Source: Allosphingosinicella indica (GTDB lineage Bacteria; Pseudomonadota; Alphaproteobacteria; Sphingomonadales; Sphingomonadaceae). From it: DNA of 64,000 nt. Numbering within the stretch: position 1 is the first letter of the stretch; each line of letters begins with the position of its first letter. The stretch covers positions 1,665,501-1,729,500 of the forward strand of contig NZ_LT840185.1 of NCBI RefSeq assembly GCF_900177405.1, given 5' to 3'. Both the position numbers and the translations under genes were made by a program. This document shows positions 27,342-47,237 of the stretch, in pieces. The notes below the pieces were generated by a model, which saw only the letters and a program-made list of their open reading frames with translations, made no database searches and was not told where the DNA came from.

Positions 27342-27890
27342 TCAAACTTCCTTCTTGGTCTTGCCGTCGCGGGTCAGCAGCGATCGGACCAGCAATAGCA
27401 GGACACCGATGGTAATGGCAGCGTCGGCGACATTGAAGATCAAAAACGGCCGCCATTCGCCGAAATGAAGGTCCAGAAAGTCGACCACATAGCCGTAGCG
27501 GACGCGATCGACGATGTTACCGAGCGCGCCGCCCAGGATCATCGACAGCGCCACCGCGTCCGCCCGCTTGGGCTCTCGCCACAGCCAGACGGCGACGAAG
27601 ATGGCGATTCCCGCGGTCATCGCGACCAGCAGCCAGCGGCCGAGATCGGTGTCGGCGGTGAGCATCCCCATCGATACGCCGCGATTCTCCACCCAGCGCA
27701 GATCGAAGATCGGCAGCAGATCGATCACGCCACGCTGCTGGAGCTGGAGCGGATAGGTGACGATCCACTTCAGGATCTGGTCGACTACGAAGATGCCGAT
27801 CGCGAGCGTGTAGCCGAACGTCCGCCAGCGGCCTTCCTCGCCGGGGTGAGGCGCCGCGACAGGGGCCGGAGTGTCGGTCAATTCAGCCAT
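27342..27890 (-). CDS. lspA: Lipoprotein signal peptidase
   Basis: Aspartyl membrane protease that removes lipoprotein signal peptides, 182 residues with four hydrophobic segments. Catalytic Asp residues lie in YGYVVDFLD and FNVADAA, 19 residues apart as in other LspA. GGALGNIVDRV and the conserved VENRGVSMG are also present. Overlaps the ileS stop by eight bases. Several likely substrates are in this window (PrsT, the DUF3035 protein, the M49-like peptidase). Confidence 0.96.
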   Translation of the reverse strand: MAELTDTPAPVAAPHPGEEGRWRTFGYTLAIGIFVVDQILKWIVTYPLQLQQRGVIDLLPIFDLRWVENRGVSMGMLTADTDLGRWLLVAMTAGIAIFVAVWLWREPKRADAVALSMILGGALGNIVDRVRYGYVVDFLDLHFGEWRPFLIFNVADAAITIGVLLLLVRSLLTRDGKTKKEV

Positions 27891-30813
27891 GCACCACCTT
27901 GTCGCACCGGCCGCAGAGCGCGCCGTCCTCAGTCACTTCGGGAAGCAGCCGCCAGCAGCGGCCGCATTTGTGCCGATCGCTCGCTTCGATCGCGATGCGA
28001 TCATGCTGGCCCTCAGCCACCGCGAGACCGGAGACGATGCAGACTTCCGCAAAATCGAGCGATTTCACGATGGCGACCAGATCGGGATTGGCGAGCTCGA
28101 TCGCGACATTGGCGGCGAGGCTAGAGCCGACCACCTTGTCGCGCCGCATCGGCTCGATCGCCTCCGTCACGCGGATGCGCAGGCCGCGCAGCAATTCCCA
28201 CTTCTCGCCCAGCGCCTCGTCGCGCCACGCGGCATCGACTTCGGGCCATTCCAGCAGGTGCACCGAGCCGCAGTCGGGGAAGCGGGTTTGCCAGACTTCT
28301 TCGGCGGTGAAGGGGATGATCGGCGCGGCCCAGCGGACCAGCGCGTGGAACAGGATGTCGAGCACGGTGCGATAGGCGCGGCGCTTGGGATCGCCCGGCG
28401 CGTCGCAATAGAGGCTGTCCTTGCGGATATCGAAGAAGAAGGCGGAAAGATCGTCGTTGGCGAAATTGGTCAGCGCGCGGACGTAGCGGTTGAACTCGAA
28501 CGCCTCGACGGCGGCCTTGAGCTCGGCATCGAGCAGTGCGACGCGGTGGAGGATGTAGCGCTCCAGCTCCGGCATCGCCGCCGGCGCCACCCGCTCCGCA
28601 TCGTCGAACCCGTCGAGCGCGCCCAGGAGGTAGCGGAAGCTGTTGCGGAGCTTGCGATACATGTCGGTGGTGCCGGACAGCACCTCCTTGCCGATGCGCA
28701 CGTCCTCGAAATAATCGGTGCTCGCGACCCAGAGGCGGAGGATGTCCGCGCCATTGTCGCGGATGATCGCCAGCGGATCGACTACGTTGCCGACCGATTT
28801 GGACATCTTGCGGCCCTGCGCGTCGAGCGCGAAGCCGTGGGTCAGCACGGCATCATAAGGGGCGCGGCCGCGGGTGCCGGCGCTTTCGAGCAGCGAGGAC
28901 TGGAACCAGCCGCGATGCTGGTCCGACCCTTCGATGTAGAGATCGGCGCGGACACCCTCTCCATAGCGCGCCTCGATCACGAAGGCGTGGGTCGACCCGC
29001 TGTCGAACCAGACGTCGAGGATGTCGTTGACCGGCTCGTAATCGGCGAGATCATAGTCCGGGCCGAGCAGCGCCTGATGATCGGCGGTGAACCAGGCGTC
29101 GGCGCCGCCCTGGCGGAAGGCCGCGACAATCCGTGCGTTGACCGCTGGATCGACGAGATACTCGCCGCTCTTGCGGTGGACGTAGAGTGCGATCGGCACG
29201 CCCCAGGCGCGCTGACGGCTGATCACCCAGTCCGGCCGCCCCTCGACCATCGCGCGGATGCGGTTCTTCGAGCGCTCGGGCACCCAGCGGGTATTCTCGA
29301 TCGCATCAAGCGCGATGCCGCGGAGGGTGGGATGGTTGGAGGGCGATCTCTCGACGGTCGCGTCTCGACTGCGCTCGACGCTGCTCGAGATGAGCGGTTT
29401 TGCATTTTTCACTCCGCTCGTCTCGAGCGCAGGGTCGAGCCTGTCGAGACCCGCAGTCGAGAGATCCATCGGGATGAACCACTGCGGTGTGCAGCGGAAG
29501 ATGACCTTGGCCTTCGACCGCCAGCTATGCGGATAGGAATGTTTGAAGTCCGCGCTCGCGGCGAGGAGGGCGCCGGCTTCGCGGAGGTCGGTGCAGATCG
29601 GGCCGTCGGGGGCGTTGAACTTGGGGTTGATGACGCTGCCTTGGCCGCCGAGCCACGCCCAGTCCGGTCGATACTTGCCGTCGTCGGTGACCGCGAAGAC
29701 GGGGCCGATGCCGTGCGCCTTGCACAGATCGAAATCGTCCTCGCCATGATCGGGCGCCATGTGGACGAGGCCGGTGCCCGCATCGGTGGTGACGAACTCG
29801 CCGGGCAGGAACGGGCGTGGCTTGGCGAAGAAACCGCCGAGATGATGCATCGGGTGGCGGGCGACGGTGCCAGCGAGGTCGGAGCCTTCAATCCTTTTGA
29901 TCTGCGTCAAGGTAACAAGCAGTCGGTCTTCGATCGCATCGATCAGGTGCTTAGCTACAAGCACCTTTCGATCCGGCGCAGGAGGTTCATCGTCCGAGAA
30001 CGGGATCGGACGCATTGATGCCAAAACGTAAGCGATCTCTGGCCCGTAAGCTAAAGCCTGGTTGACCGGGATGGTCCAGGGCGTAGTGGTCCACACCACC
30101 GCGTGGGCGCCGATCAGCTCGGGGATCGGGCTTTCGACGATCTCGAACGCCACGTCGATCTGGGTGGAGGTGATGTCCTCATATTCCACCTCGGCGTCGG
30201 CGAGGGCGGTCTTTTCGACCGGGCTCCACATCACCGGCTTGGCGCCGCGGTAGAGCTGGCCGCTCTCCGCGAACTTCAAGAGCTCGGCGGCGATCGTCGC
30301 CTCGGCCTCATAGGCCATGGTGAGATAGGGATCGTCCCACTCGCCCATCACGCCGAGGCGCTGGAACTGCTCGCGCTGCACGCCGACCCACTTGTCCGCA
30401 TAGGCGCGGCATTCGGCGCGGAACTGCGCCTTGGGCACCTCGTCCTTGTCGAGCTTCTTCTTGCGATATTGCTCCTCCACCTTCCATTCGATCGGAAGGC
30501 CGTGGCAGTCCCAGCCGGGGATGTAGGGCGCATCCTTGCCCATCAGGCTGCGGCTGCGGACGATGATGTCCTTCAGCACCTTGTTCATGGCGTGCCCCAT
30601 GTGGAGATCGCCATTGGCGTAGGGCGGGCCGTCGTGGAGGATGAAGCGGGTGCGCCCGGCGCGCGCGGCGCGGAGCTGCTCGTATAGCTTCTCCTGCTCC
30701 CAGCGCGCGAGGATCGCCGGCTCCTTCTGGGCGAGGCCGGCCTTCATGGGAAAATCGGTCTTCGGCAGGAAGACCGTATCGCGCCAATCCTGGGTGGGGG
30801 ACTCATCGGACAT
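27883..30813 (-). CDS. ileS: Isoleucyl-tRNA synthetase with an in-frame palindromic insertion
   Basis: Class Ia synthetase, 976 residues. Class signatures: PYANGDLHMGHAMN (HIGH box) and GRKMSKSVGN (KMSKS box); the C-terminus has a Cys cluster KCGRCWRLLPEV..LCGRCD for zinc. Two oddities stand out. Between QWFIPMD and RGIALDAIENTRW, where homologues have only a few residues, about 44 extra residues are encoded, 41 of them by a palindromic element (29345-29466). Also, the editing-domain segment at 29890-30065 is visibly less GC-rich than its surroundings, with unusual codons. The frame stays open through both. The gene lies between ribF and lspA, the common order. Confidence 0.96.
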   Translation of the reverse strand: MSDESPTQDWRDTVFLPKTDFPMKAGLAQKEPAILARWEQEKLYEQLRAARAGRTRFILHDGPPYANGDLHMGHAMNKVLKDIIVRSRSLMGKDAPYIPGWDCHGLPIEWKVEEQYRKKKLDKDEVPKAQFRAECRAYADKWVGVQREQFQRLGVMGEWDDPYLTMAYEAEATIAAELLKFAESGQLYRGAKPVMWSPVEKTALADAEVEYEDITSTQIDVAFEIVESPIPELIGAHAVVWTTTPWTIPVNQALAYGPEIAYVLASMRPIPFSDDEPPAPDRKVLVAKHLIDAIEDRLLVTLTQIKRIEGSDLAGTVARHPMHHLGGFFAKPRPFLPGEFVTTDAGTGLVHMAPDHGEDDFDLCKAHGIGPVFAVTDDGKYRPDWAWLGGQGSVINPKFNAPDGPICTDLREAGALLAASADFKHSYPHSWRSKAKVIFRCTPQWFIPMDLSTAGLDRLDPALETSGVKNAKPLISSSVERSRDATVERSPSNHPTLRGIALDAIENTRWVPERSKNRIRAMVEGRPDWVISRQRAWGVPIALYVHRKSGEYLVDPAVNARIVAAFRQGGADAWFTADHQALLGPDYDLADYEPVNDILDVWFDSGSTHAFVIEARYGEGVRADLYIEGSDQHRGWFQSSLLESAGTRGRAPYDAVLTHGFALDAQGRKMSKSVGNVVDPLAIIRDNGADILRLWVASTDYFEDVRIGKEVLSGTTDMYRKLRNSFRYLLGALDGFDDAERVAPAAMPELERYILHRVALLDAELKAAVEAFEFNRYVRALTNFANDDLSAFFFDIRKDSLYCDAPGDPKRRAYRTVLDILFHALVRWAAPIIPFTAEEVWQTRFPDCGSVHLLEWPEVDAAWRDEALGEKWELLRGLRIRVTEAIEPMRRDKVVGSSLAANVAIELANPDLVAIVKSLDFAEVCIVSGLAVAEGQHDRIAIEASDRHKCGRCWRLLPEVTEDGALCGRCDKVVHG
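29345..29466. repeat. Palindromic element inserted in frame inside ileS
   Basis: An element of about 122 bases with 11-bp perfect terminal inverted repeats (GATCTCTCGAC at 29345-29355 and GTCGAGAGATC at 29456-29466). Inside is a second inverted repeat: CTCGAGATGAGCGG and CCGCTCGTCTCGAG, one mismatch, around an AT-rich loop TTTTGCATTTTTCACT. Read on the coding strand it adds no stop codon and encodes Ser/Arg/Leu-rich sequence (LISSSVERSRDATVERS). The design resembles Rickettsia palindromic elements that enter genes in frame, though the sequence is different. Confidence 0.8.
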
Positions 30814-30856: not shown

Positions 30857-30939
30857 CGTCATGCTGAACTTGTTTCAGCATCCAGCGAGGAGCTGCGGTG
30901 CGGTGGCGGACTGGACCCTGAAACAAGTTCAGGGTGACG
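30857..30939. repeat. Dispersed palindromic repeat, copy 1 (ribF-ileS junction)
   Basis: Left arm CGTCATGCTGAACTTGTTTC (ending AGCATCCA) and right arm TGGACCCTGAAACAAGTTCA (ending GGGTGACGA) form a long imperfect palindrome of about 83 bases. Each arm is itself a small hairpin (ATGCTGAA/TTCAGCAT and ACCCTGAA/TTCAGGGT). It lies in the ribF-ileS gap and runs into the ribF reading frame, supplying its last codons and stop. A second copy, inverted, is at 62558-62643. Confidence 0.85.
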
Positions 30940-35709: not shown

Positions 35710-35783
35710 CGTCATTGCGAGGAGCGGAGCGACGCGGCAATCCATCTCGCGGGCTGGATTGCTTCGCTGCGCTCGCAATGACG
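35710..35783. repeat. Palindromic intergenic repeat, CGTCATTGCGAG family
   Basis: Arms CGTCATTGCGAGGAGCGGAG and the complement ending CTCGCAATGACG, with inner GGCAATCCA/TGGATTGC, form a 74-base imperfect hairpin immediately after the JAB gene and before the methyltransferase stop. This type is widespread in sphingomonad and other proteobacterial genomes. Only one copy is present in the window. Confidence 0.8.
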
Positions 35784-46382: not shown

Positions 46383-46559
46383 CCCCCCCCCTCGAGGGGA
46401 GAGGGATACGGAGACTTGGCAGCTCGCTGCCTAGTCGCAGTTGGGTGAGGGGTGACAGCGTTCGAGGTTACTCGCCACCGCTGTCACCCCTCACCCAGCT
46501 CCGCCTAAGCTCCTGCGTCGCCAAGGCTGCGCAACCCTCTCCCCTCAAGGGGAGAGGGG
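46383..46559. repeat. C-rich palindromic intergenic repeat, copy 2 with nested 19-bp inverted repeat
   Basis: Outer arms CCCCTCGAGGGGAGAGGG and CCCTCTCCCCTCAAGGGGAG enclose a perfect inner inverted repeat, TGGGTGAGGGGTGACAGCG (46442-46460) with its complement at 46479-46497, separated by 18 bases. It fills the whole gap between two convergent genes and touches the rlmE stop codon, so it may serve as a two-way terminator. Confidence 0.8.
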
Positions 46560-47237
46560 CTAGGTTTGTTGCTCTTCGCTACCCTTGAACCCCTGCGCCA
46601 CGACATACCATTCGCTCGATCCCTTGCGGCTGGCGGGGGGCTTGGCGTGCTTCACGGTGGTGAAGGCGCGCTTGAGATCGGCGACGAGCCCGTGGTCGGC
46701 GCCGCCCGCCAGCACCTTGGCGACATAGGCGCCGCCCGGCCGCAGGATTTCGGTAGCGAACAGCAGCCCCGCCTCGACCAGCGCCATGGTGCGGAGGTGA
46801 TCGGTCTGCTGATGGCCGACGGTGTTGGCCGCCATGTCGGAGAGGACGAGATCGGCAGGGCCGCCGAGCGCCTCCTTGAGCAAGTCGGGCGCGGCATCGT
46901 CCATGAAATCCATCTGGAGGATCGCGACGCCGTCGATCGGATCGGTGGGGAGGAGATCGATGCCGACGACCGACGCCTGCGGCAGCCGCTTGCGCACCAC
47001 CTGGCTCCACCCGCCGGGCGCGATGCCGAGATCGACGACGCGCTTCGCGCCCTTCAGGAAGGCGAATTTCTCGTCGAGCTCGATGAGCTTGTAGGCGGCG
47101 CGGCTGCGATAGCCTTCCGCCTTCGCGCGCTTGACGTAGGGGTCGTTGAGCTGGCGCTCCAGCCAGCGCGTCGATGCGATCTTGCGGCCCTTGGCCGTGC
47201 GGACCCGCGTGCGTGGCCCGCTCCCGGCACGGCTCAT
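46560..47237 (-). CDS. rlmE: 23S rRNA (uridine-2552-2'-O)-methyltransferase
   Basis: RrmJ/FtsJ family, 225 residues. SAM site VVDLGIAPGGWSQVV, catalytic Lys region YRSRAAYKLIELDEKF, and LSDMAANTVGHQQTD carry the K-D-K-E set. The N-terminal extension is short and basic as is usual in alphaproteobacteria. ATG 47237 overlaps the ppx stop (ATGA); a longer upstream frame reads out-of-frame ppx sequence. Modifies the ribosomal A loop. Confidence 0.95.
   Translation of the reverse strand: MSRAGSGPRTRVRTAKGRKIASTRWLERQLNDPYVKRAKAEGYRSRAAYKLIELDEKFAFLKGAKRVVDLGIAPGGWSQVVRKRLPQASVVGIDLLPTDPIDGVAILQMDFMDDAAPDLLKEALGGPADLVLSDMAANTVGHQQTDHLRTMALVEAGLLFATEILRPGGAYVAKVLAGGADHGLVADLKRAFTTVKHAKPPASRKGSSEWYVVAQGFKGSEEQQT

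Follow-up and report, generated by a model that had tools for sequence, protein, structure and literature searches.

A palindromic REP/BIME-like insert in the open frame of ileS in Allosphingosinicella indica, and the repeated use of its site in relatives

How does a long DNA palindrome come to lie in the open reading frame of an essential gene, and what keeps it there? The question is raised by ileS, the gene for isoleucyl-tRNA synthetase (IleRS), in Allosphingosinicella indica. The gene was analyzed in a window of 64,000 nucleotides (contig NZ_LT840185.1, positions 1,665,501 to 1,729,500), and nucleotide coordinates below are those of this window unless a locus or contig is named. An earlier note, made from the letters of the window alone, had proposed that a mobile palindrome had landed in the gene.

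The palindrome in ileS and its copies in the genome

The host gene is located on the reverse strand at 27883–30813 and is open over 976 codons, encoding a protein of 976 aa with the Pfam domains tRNA-synt_1 and Anticodon_1. Within this open frame, as the earlier note had stated, lies a palindromic element of 122 nt (29345–29466, reverse strand), which is a head-to-head dimer of a module of about 53 nt. An inverted-repeat search recovered the perfect 11-bp outer arms (29345–29355 and 29456–29466) just as described, and also the inner repeat with its one mismatch, although the inner arms were 15 nt long (29383–29397 and 29414–29428) and not 14 bp. Additional arms lie between the outer and inner repeats of the imperfect palindrome, and the AT-rich spacer at 29398–29413 was the most variable part when seven dimers were aligned. 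Folded as RNA, the 122 nt formed a single long hairpin of −77.7 kcal/mol with a z-score of −9.8, and none of 200 dinucleotide shuffles was equally stable. A search of 29000–29900 against Rfam returned three matches, all to miRNA models and far below the gathering scores, and these were taken as hairpin artefacts.

The element occupies a lineage-variable loop (29326–29463, reverse strand, codons 451–496) that ranges from 4 to 71 aa over 104 ileS rows. In the protein of A. indica the loop comprises residues 451–497, that is 47 aa between D450 and R498, compared to 6–8 aa in three rows of the same genus with empty loops and 5–10 aa in empty loops of other clade rows. The insert accordingly adds about 38–41 residues, in agreement with the 41 first estimated. 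The loop follows the motif QWFIPMD and precedes the TLR..ALDAI helix, where we take the chain to pass back out of the editing domain and into the catalytic one. The insert is absent from solved IleRS structures; in the Priestia enzyme, the stretch from residue 414 to 422 corresponds to that from 448 to 501 in the A. indica protein. An AF2 model built from 32 rows had a mean pLDDT of 82.1, matched IleRS structures and gave a TM-score of 0.84 to 8c9f, with pLDDT below 50 for residues 456–492. The model suggests that the inserted loop is probably exposed and disordered. A check for a target site duplication in this filled allele found only GAT/ATC at the flanks of the element.

The palindrome was present at 11 further places in the 2.81-Mb genome, all with E-values of 2.5e-8 or better, and weaker matches began at E 0.002. 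Six of the 11 are full head-to-head dimers, four are tail-to-tail dimers of the 53-nt module and one is a shorter copy; with ileS included, the 12 places thus hold seven head-to-head dimers, four tail-to-tail dimers and the shorter copy. The element in the loop left disordered by the model is therefore a multi-copy palindrome in frame in an essential gene, as had been supposed, but its mobility in this genome fared less well. The other six full-length copies were only 76–85% identical to the ileS copy, so the copies are not fresh, and the genome had no match to a Y1-type transposase.

Reading of the surroundings placed ten of the 12 copies between genes, with the ileS copy intragenic and one copy (L002) bridging two genes. 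In a codon-usage test, ileS alone among the 12 places was coding in one open frame to either side; L002 also had the same frame on both sides, with a score below the threshold, and at most two of the 12 copies are therefore in an open frame. The L002 copy (L002:1216–2361, near 263295 of G000:C1) joins GIY-YIG and SpoU-methylase domains in an open ORF of 382 aa, and it is possible that the element has made a gene fusion here, or that there are two genes with a start inside. Over the seven dimers of the family, 25 of the 42 frames were free of stops. None of 40 pairs had changed on both sides among the copies, a result that says nothing about covariation because the stems hardly vary among the seven dimers.

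Three other palindromes were seen in the window. A CGTC-tagged head-to-head REP dimer at 30857–30939 is located directly upstream of the ileS start and extends to the end of the adjoining ORF, ribF-like by eye, and another CGTC-tagged REP dimer occupies 35710–35783 (CGTCATTGCGAG...CTCGCAATGACG). A large palindrome at about 46383–46560, whose ends are of the CCCTCTCCCC type and whose inner stem is 22 bp long (46439–46500), resembles the F1 inserts found in ileS of relatives.

The same loop in related genomes

To compare the loop across relatives, ileS loci were taken from 30 of 60 genomes, the A. indica genome included, from the best 80 of 572 named candidates and, for two genomes, from stretches. 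The 104 rows mentioned above are the readable, non-duplicate loops. Six unparsed rows were left out (L055, L056, L125, L134, L136 and L138; the first two are F1-like by eye), as were the duplicates L061 (of G019), L063 (with an insert identical to that of L040) and L141–L158. Nine outgroup rows, among them one titled as a Sphingomonadales MAG (L117), had loops of 4–14 residues, eight of them no longer than 11. In the remaining 95 rows, a clade whose members are mainly Sphingomonadales by title, the loop held an insert of a palindrome family in 48, another peptide of at least 14 residues in 32, and was nearly empty in 15.

Families were assigned from motifs and by reading, and one row (L062) was placed in F2 by eye alone. 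F1 has C/T-rich arms, for example CCCTCTCCC/GGGAGAGGG with CCCCTCCC variants, and its 31 rows are perhaps several families. F2 (TCGAC..GCTC; 11 rows) includes the element of A. indica, F4 consists of CGTC-type REP dimers in three rows (L077, L080 and L120, by reading), and F5 and F6 account for two rows and one row. Two rows counted as F1 (L074 and L079) seem to hold F1 and F6 side by side. Compared by eye, F1, F2 and F4 are clearly unrelated to one another, which makes at least three families at this site, and F5 and F6 may add two. The same insert was thus not common to the relatives read, and the idea of a one-off insertion did not hold, since other palindrome families use the same site. 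With further copies present in the A. indica genome as well, neither of the two findings that the earlier note had named as a refutation was borne out. Within the genus, where 26 genomes gave 23 readable rows, there were 13 F1 inserts, 6 F2 inserts, 3 empty loops and 1 other, that is palindrome-family inserts in 19 of 23.

Strong folding went with the palindrome families. Of 81 inserts scored with 60 shuffles each, 40 had a z-score of −4 or lower compared to 3 of 241 control windows, matched in length and taken from the same genes, and this difference was counted in favor of repeat inserts. No insert outside the palindrome families reached this value (0/33), and eight of the 48 labeled inserts remained above it and may be decayed palindromes. 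The open frame runs through F1 arms in all three phases, which argues against selection of one peptide. In contrast, two rows (L107 and L128) with a common non-palindromic insert of 32 residues differed by 10 synonymous codon changes and no amino-acid change; the peptide looks constrained from this comparison, suggesting that some inserts are not neutral.

Some further observations were made in these loci. A 36-residue ileS insert with a common WE.EGGA motif occurs in several genera (L048, L088, L097, L099, L101, L106, L109, L121 and L122); its WEGEG part is similar to F1 repeats in translation, and one might speculate that it is an old, tamed palindrome. A second ileS loop, in the editing domain after TPWTIPVNQA.AYG, has an apparent translated repeat in L041 and L054. 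Two assemblies break at the insert, as expected of a repeat: G002 within it (C71/C57) and G021 just past it (C370/C197).

In two relatives, searches with their own ileS inserts again singled out ileS. G025 had 22 match rows, and the frame test was passed by ileS alone. G016 had 76 match rows, of which 30 were frame-tested and just two, both ileS, passed; one further G016 locus (L186) had a single frame on both sides but with a stop, and a copy in valS (C5:93440), outside those 30, is a second mid-gene copy in that genome.

The history of the loop was followed on a FastTree tree of the 104 rows from which the insert had been excluded, with 46 of 101 inner branches starred. The seven loop states required 43 changes, each of which may be a gain or a loss, compared to a mean of 57.2 after shuffling, and none of 200 shuffles was as low. 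The minimum number of changes forced by the starred branches alone was 13 for F1, 8 for F2, 3 for F4 and 2 for F5. Close relatives differed as well. An empty loop (L085) and an F2 insert (L086) stood in one supported group of four on branches of 0.031 and 0.035, and S. azotifigens (L072) and S. pokkalii (L076) had near-identical IleRS with different palindromes (branches of 0.016 and 0.018, support 93); both pairs were counted in favor of repeated filling. The flanks in the latter pair also differ. Similarly, F1 in L029 was paired with F2 in L051 (support 100), and an empty loop in L112 with F2 in L126 (support 99).

Inserts in other genes and likeness to known repeats

Is ileS special in this respect? 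In a background screen, 20 stretches around ileS (384 kb) with 290 conserved genes were searched, and one repeat per gene, the top one, was judged. An inverted repeat of at least 13 was not specific in itself, being found in 60 of the 290 genes compared to 36 in a codon-shuffled control. The top repeats that coincided with an insert, as judged against homologues, were all in ileS. Strong repeats in L143_4451, L158_7266, L156_15561 and L156_7865 were set aside, since they lay in N-terminal stretches with 0–2 homologues, where the starts are probably too far upstream, as were those in L154_3331 and L150_12990, which lay in conserved coding sequence without an insert. With a stem of at least 16 and a span of at least 45 as criteria, 12 of 35 palindromes in the ileS neighborhoods were mid-gene in an open frame, nine of them in ileS. 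The same criteria applied to 40 other stretches of nine genomes of the genus (800 kb) gave 5 of 29, and four of these five were ordinary coding sequence by eye. The fifth, in a gene of G001 named sufC-like by eye (L235:9734–9884), is an in-frame palindromic insert splitting the ABC domain (ABC_tran by Pfam) and looks like a repeat insert. In-frame repeat inserts outside ileS therefore look rare, with one per 800 kb sampled.

Other genes differed widely. Of 16 valS proteins read from the genus, five had repeat-like inserts, in two loops and with stems of 9–27 (L272, L273, L274, L276 and L277), including A. indica itself (L273) and G016, whose insert belongs to the F2 family of that genome; none was seen in eight proteins read from other families. 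In uvrA, one loop had a z-score of −4 or lower in 9 of 20 scored rows, A. indica included (L324), compared to 0 of 34 control windows; L313 and L315 were left unscored, and L332 is a second uvrA. The nine folding inserts differ in sequence (L314, L316, L324, L326, L327, L328, L329, L330 and L333). Among 24 leuS proteins, 23 were read without such an insert and one had a repeat-like insert with a stop (G022, L306/L310), which may be a real break or an assembly fault in a genome that is 68% complete. The 26 alaS proteins read, of which five had come from the wrong strand, showed no such insert. With none in alaS and one in leuS, tolerance must differ strongly between genes, and among the few loops that take up such inserts that of ileS appears as the most extreme.

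The element resembles REP/BIME sequences in having a short palindromic module, many copies and inverted dimers, and in lying mostly between genes (10 of 12 copies). It differs in the tag by which REPs are defined in PMC3733652, a GTAG or CGTC beside a short stem: read by eye, GTAG is absent from 29345–29466, and CGTC occurs only internally and never before an AT-led stem of 8–9 bp. It also differs from the GTAG REPs, which have a RAYT (Y1) transposase, as the A. indica genome had no PF01797 match. Such matches were present in 11 of 26 genomes of the genus and 19 of 60 relatives. Genomes with and without them have palindromic inserts in ileS. A RAYT as the mover was thus rejected. CGTC REPs are stated to lack a RAYT transposase (PMC3733652).

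The earlier note knew of no described equivalent in sphingomonads, and this needs correction. In PMC3733652 (Di Nocera 2013), CGTC-tagged REPs are reported from sphingomonads and REPs within ORFs from many species. The intragenic examples include tRNA synthetases, in X. oryzae as well as in the sphingomonads E. litoralis and S. alaskensis, uvrA in species other than these two sphingomonads, and recB, in which two Xanthomonas species have REPs at nearly the same position. Loops or linkers are suggested there as neutral places. In-frame REPs, including those in sphingomonad tRNA-synthetase genes, are therefore already known from that paper, and the inverted dimers, mostly intergenic and sometimes intragenic, are as here. 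In contrast to the one same-site case in it, the ileS site has been used repeatedly over a clade, by no fewer than three clearly unrelated families. A search of open-licence papers by title and start of abstract found none on palindromes in ileS, and four words of 14 bases from the F2 repeat led to no paper. Nor did this search bring up a report of several families recurring across a clade at one loop of an essential gene.

Palindromic elements of Rickettsia (RPEs), to which the insert had first been compared, were reportedly described by Ogata in 2000 and 2002, and the title of the 2002 paper is said to call protein-coding palindromes unique to Rickettsia. The comparison stands for translation in frame within a housekeeping gene and the addition of tens of residues. 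It fails for the intragenic share, which is large in RPEs as described in PMC10969869, compared to one of 12 copies, or two with L002, in A. indica. The use of one site by unrelated families also sets the ileS loop apart from RPEs as they are described. MITEs are likewise short with terminal inverted repeats, like the perfect 11-bp arms here.

What fills and refills the loop

The element at 29345–29466 is a genuine REP/BIME-like insertion within an open frame, of a known kind but with an unusual repeated use of one site. We consider it likely, with a probability of roughly 0.7, that a REP/BIME-like repeat is tolerated in the ileS loop and that the loop is filled, lost and refilled by the palindrome families of the lineage. 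One copy of the A. indica family would have landed in a short loop, presumably by transposition-like copying. A stop-free piece of frame-keeping length would be tolerated there because this part of the protein is probably disordered and at the surface, and it would be translated and kept in the mature protein at little cost. The few similar loops in uvrA and valS would be filled and emptied in the same way, and some old inserts may turn into conserved peptides. Several results were counted against this explanation, namely the lack of a Y1 transposase match in the A. indica genome, the unchanged peptide of L107 and L128, the lack of such inserts in alaS with a single one in leuS, and the 32 of 95 clade rows that are filled without any hairpin.

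An unlikely alternative is that the ileS mRNA has a use for the hairpin, such as slowing the ribosome once the editing domain has been made, so that any strong palindrome would serve. The strong folding common to unrelated families, the −77.7 kcal/mol of the A. indica element and the 19 of 23 genus rows are consistent with such a role, but among the 95 clade rows the loop is nearly empty in 15, and in another 32 it has inserts of which none reaches a z-score of −4. Similar inserts in uvrA and valS also speak against it, as does the absence of double-sided changes in 40 pairs, though the stems hardly vary. It is also improbable that the DNA hairpin itself makes a hotspot, where recombination or template switching puts a new palindrome in place of an older one, or inside it, and tolerance of the protein loop is not what holds the site. 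The different palindromes in the almost identical IleRS of L072 and L076, and the two families apparently side by side in L074 and L079, would fit a hotspot, but close relatives with empty and filled loops exist too (L085/L086 and L112/L126), and the differing flanks of L072 and L076 mean that recombination of the gene itself may explain that pair. An ordinary, vertically inherited peptide that is palindromic by chance or codon bias is hardly credible despite the conserved non-palindromic inserts of some clades, given the z-score of −9.8, the many copies and the other families in relatives.

If the loop is indeed filled, lost and refilled by repeats, a bolder proposal can be made, which we hold only tentatively and at somewhat less than even odds. 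A few loops, ileS above all and then uvrA and valS, would be standing docking sites where one palindromic element gives way to another, unrelated one, and from these sites essential enzymes would gain new conserved peptides. Even without this proposal, one loop of an essential enzyme filled many times by unrelated families outside Rickettsia would put the neutrality, harm or use of inserts to a replicated test, and the same loop would show how palindromic inserts become conserved peptides. Such filling would also account for odd insertions in sphingomonad IleRS, UvrA and ValRS. If true, the docking sites would be a replicated natural experiment in which protein sequence is made from selfish DNA.
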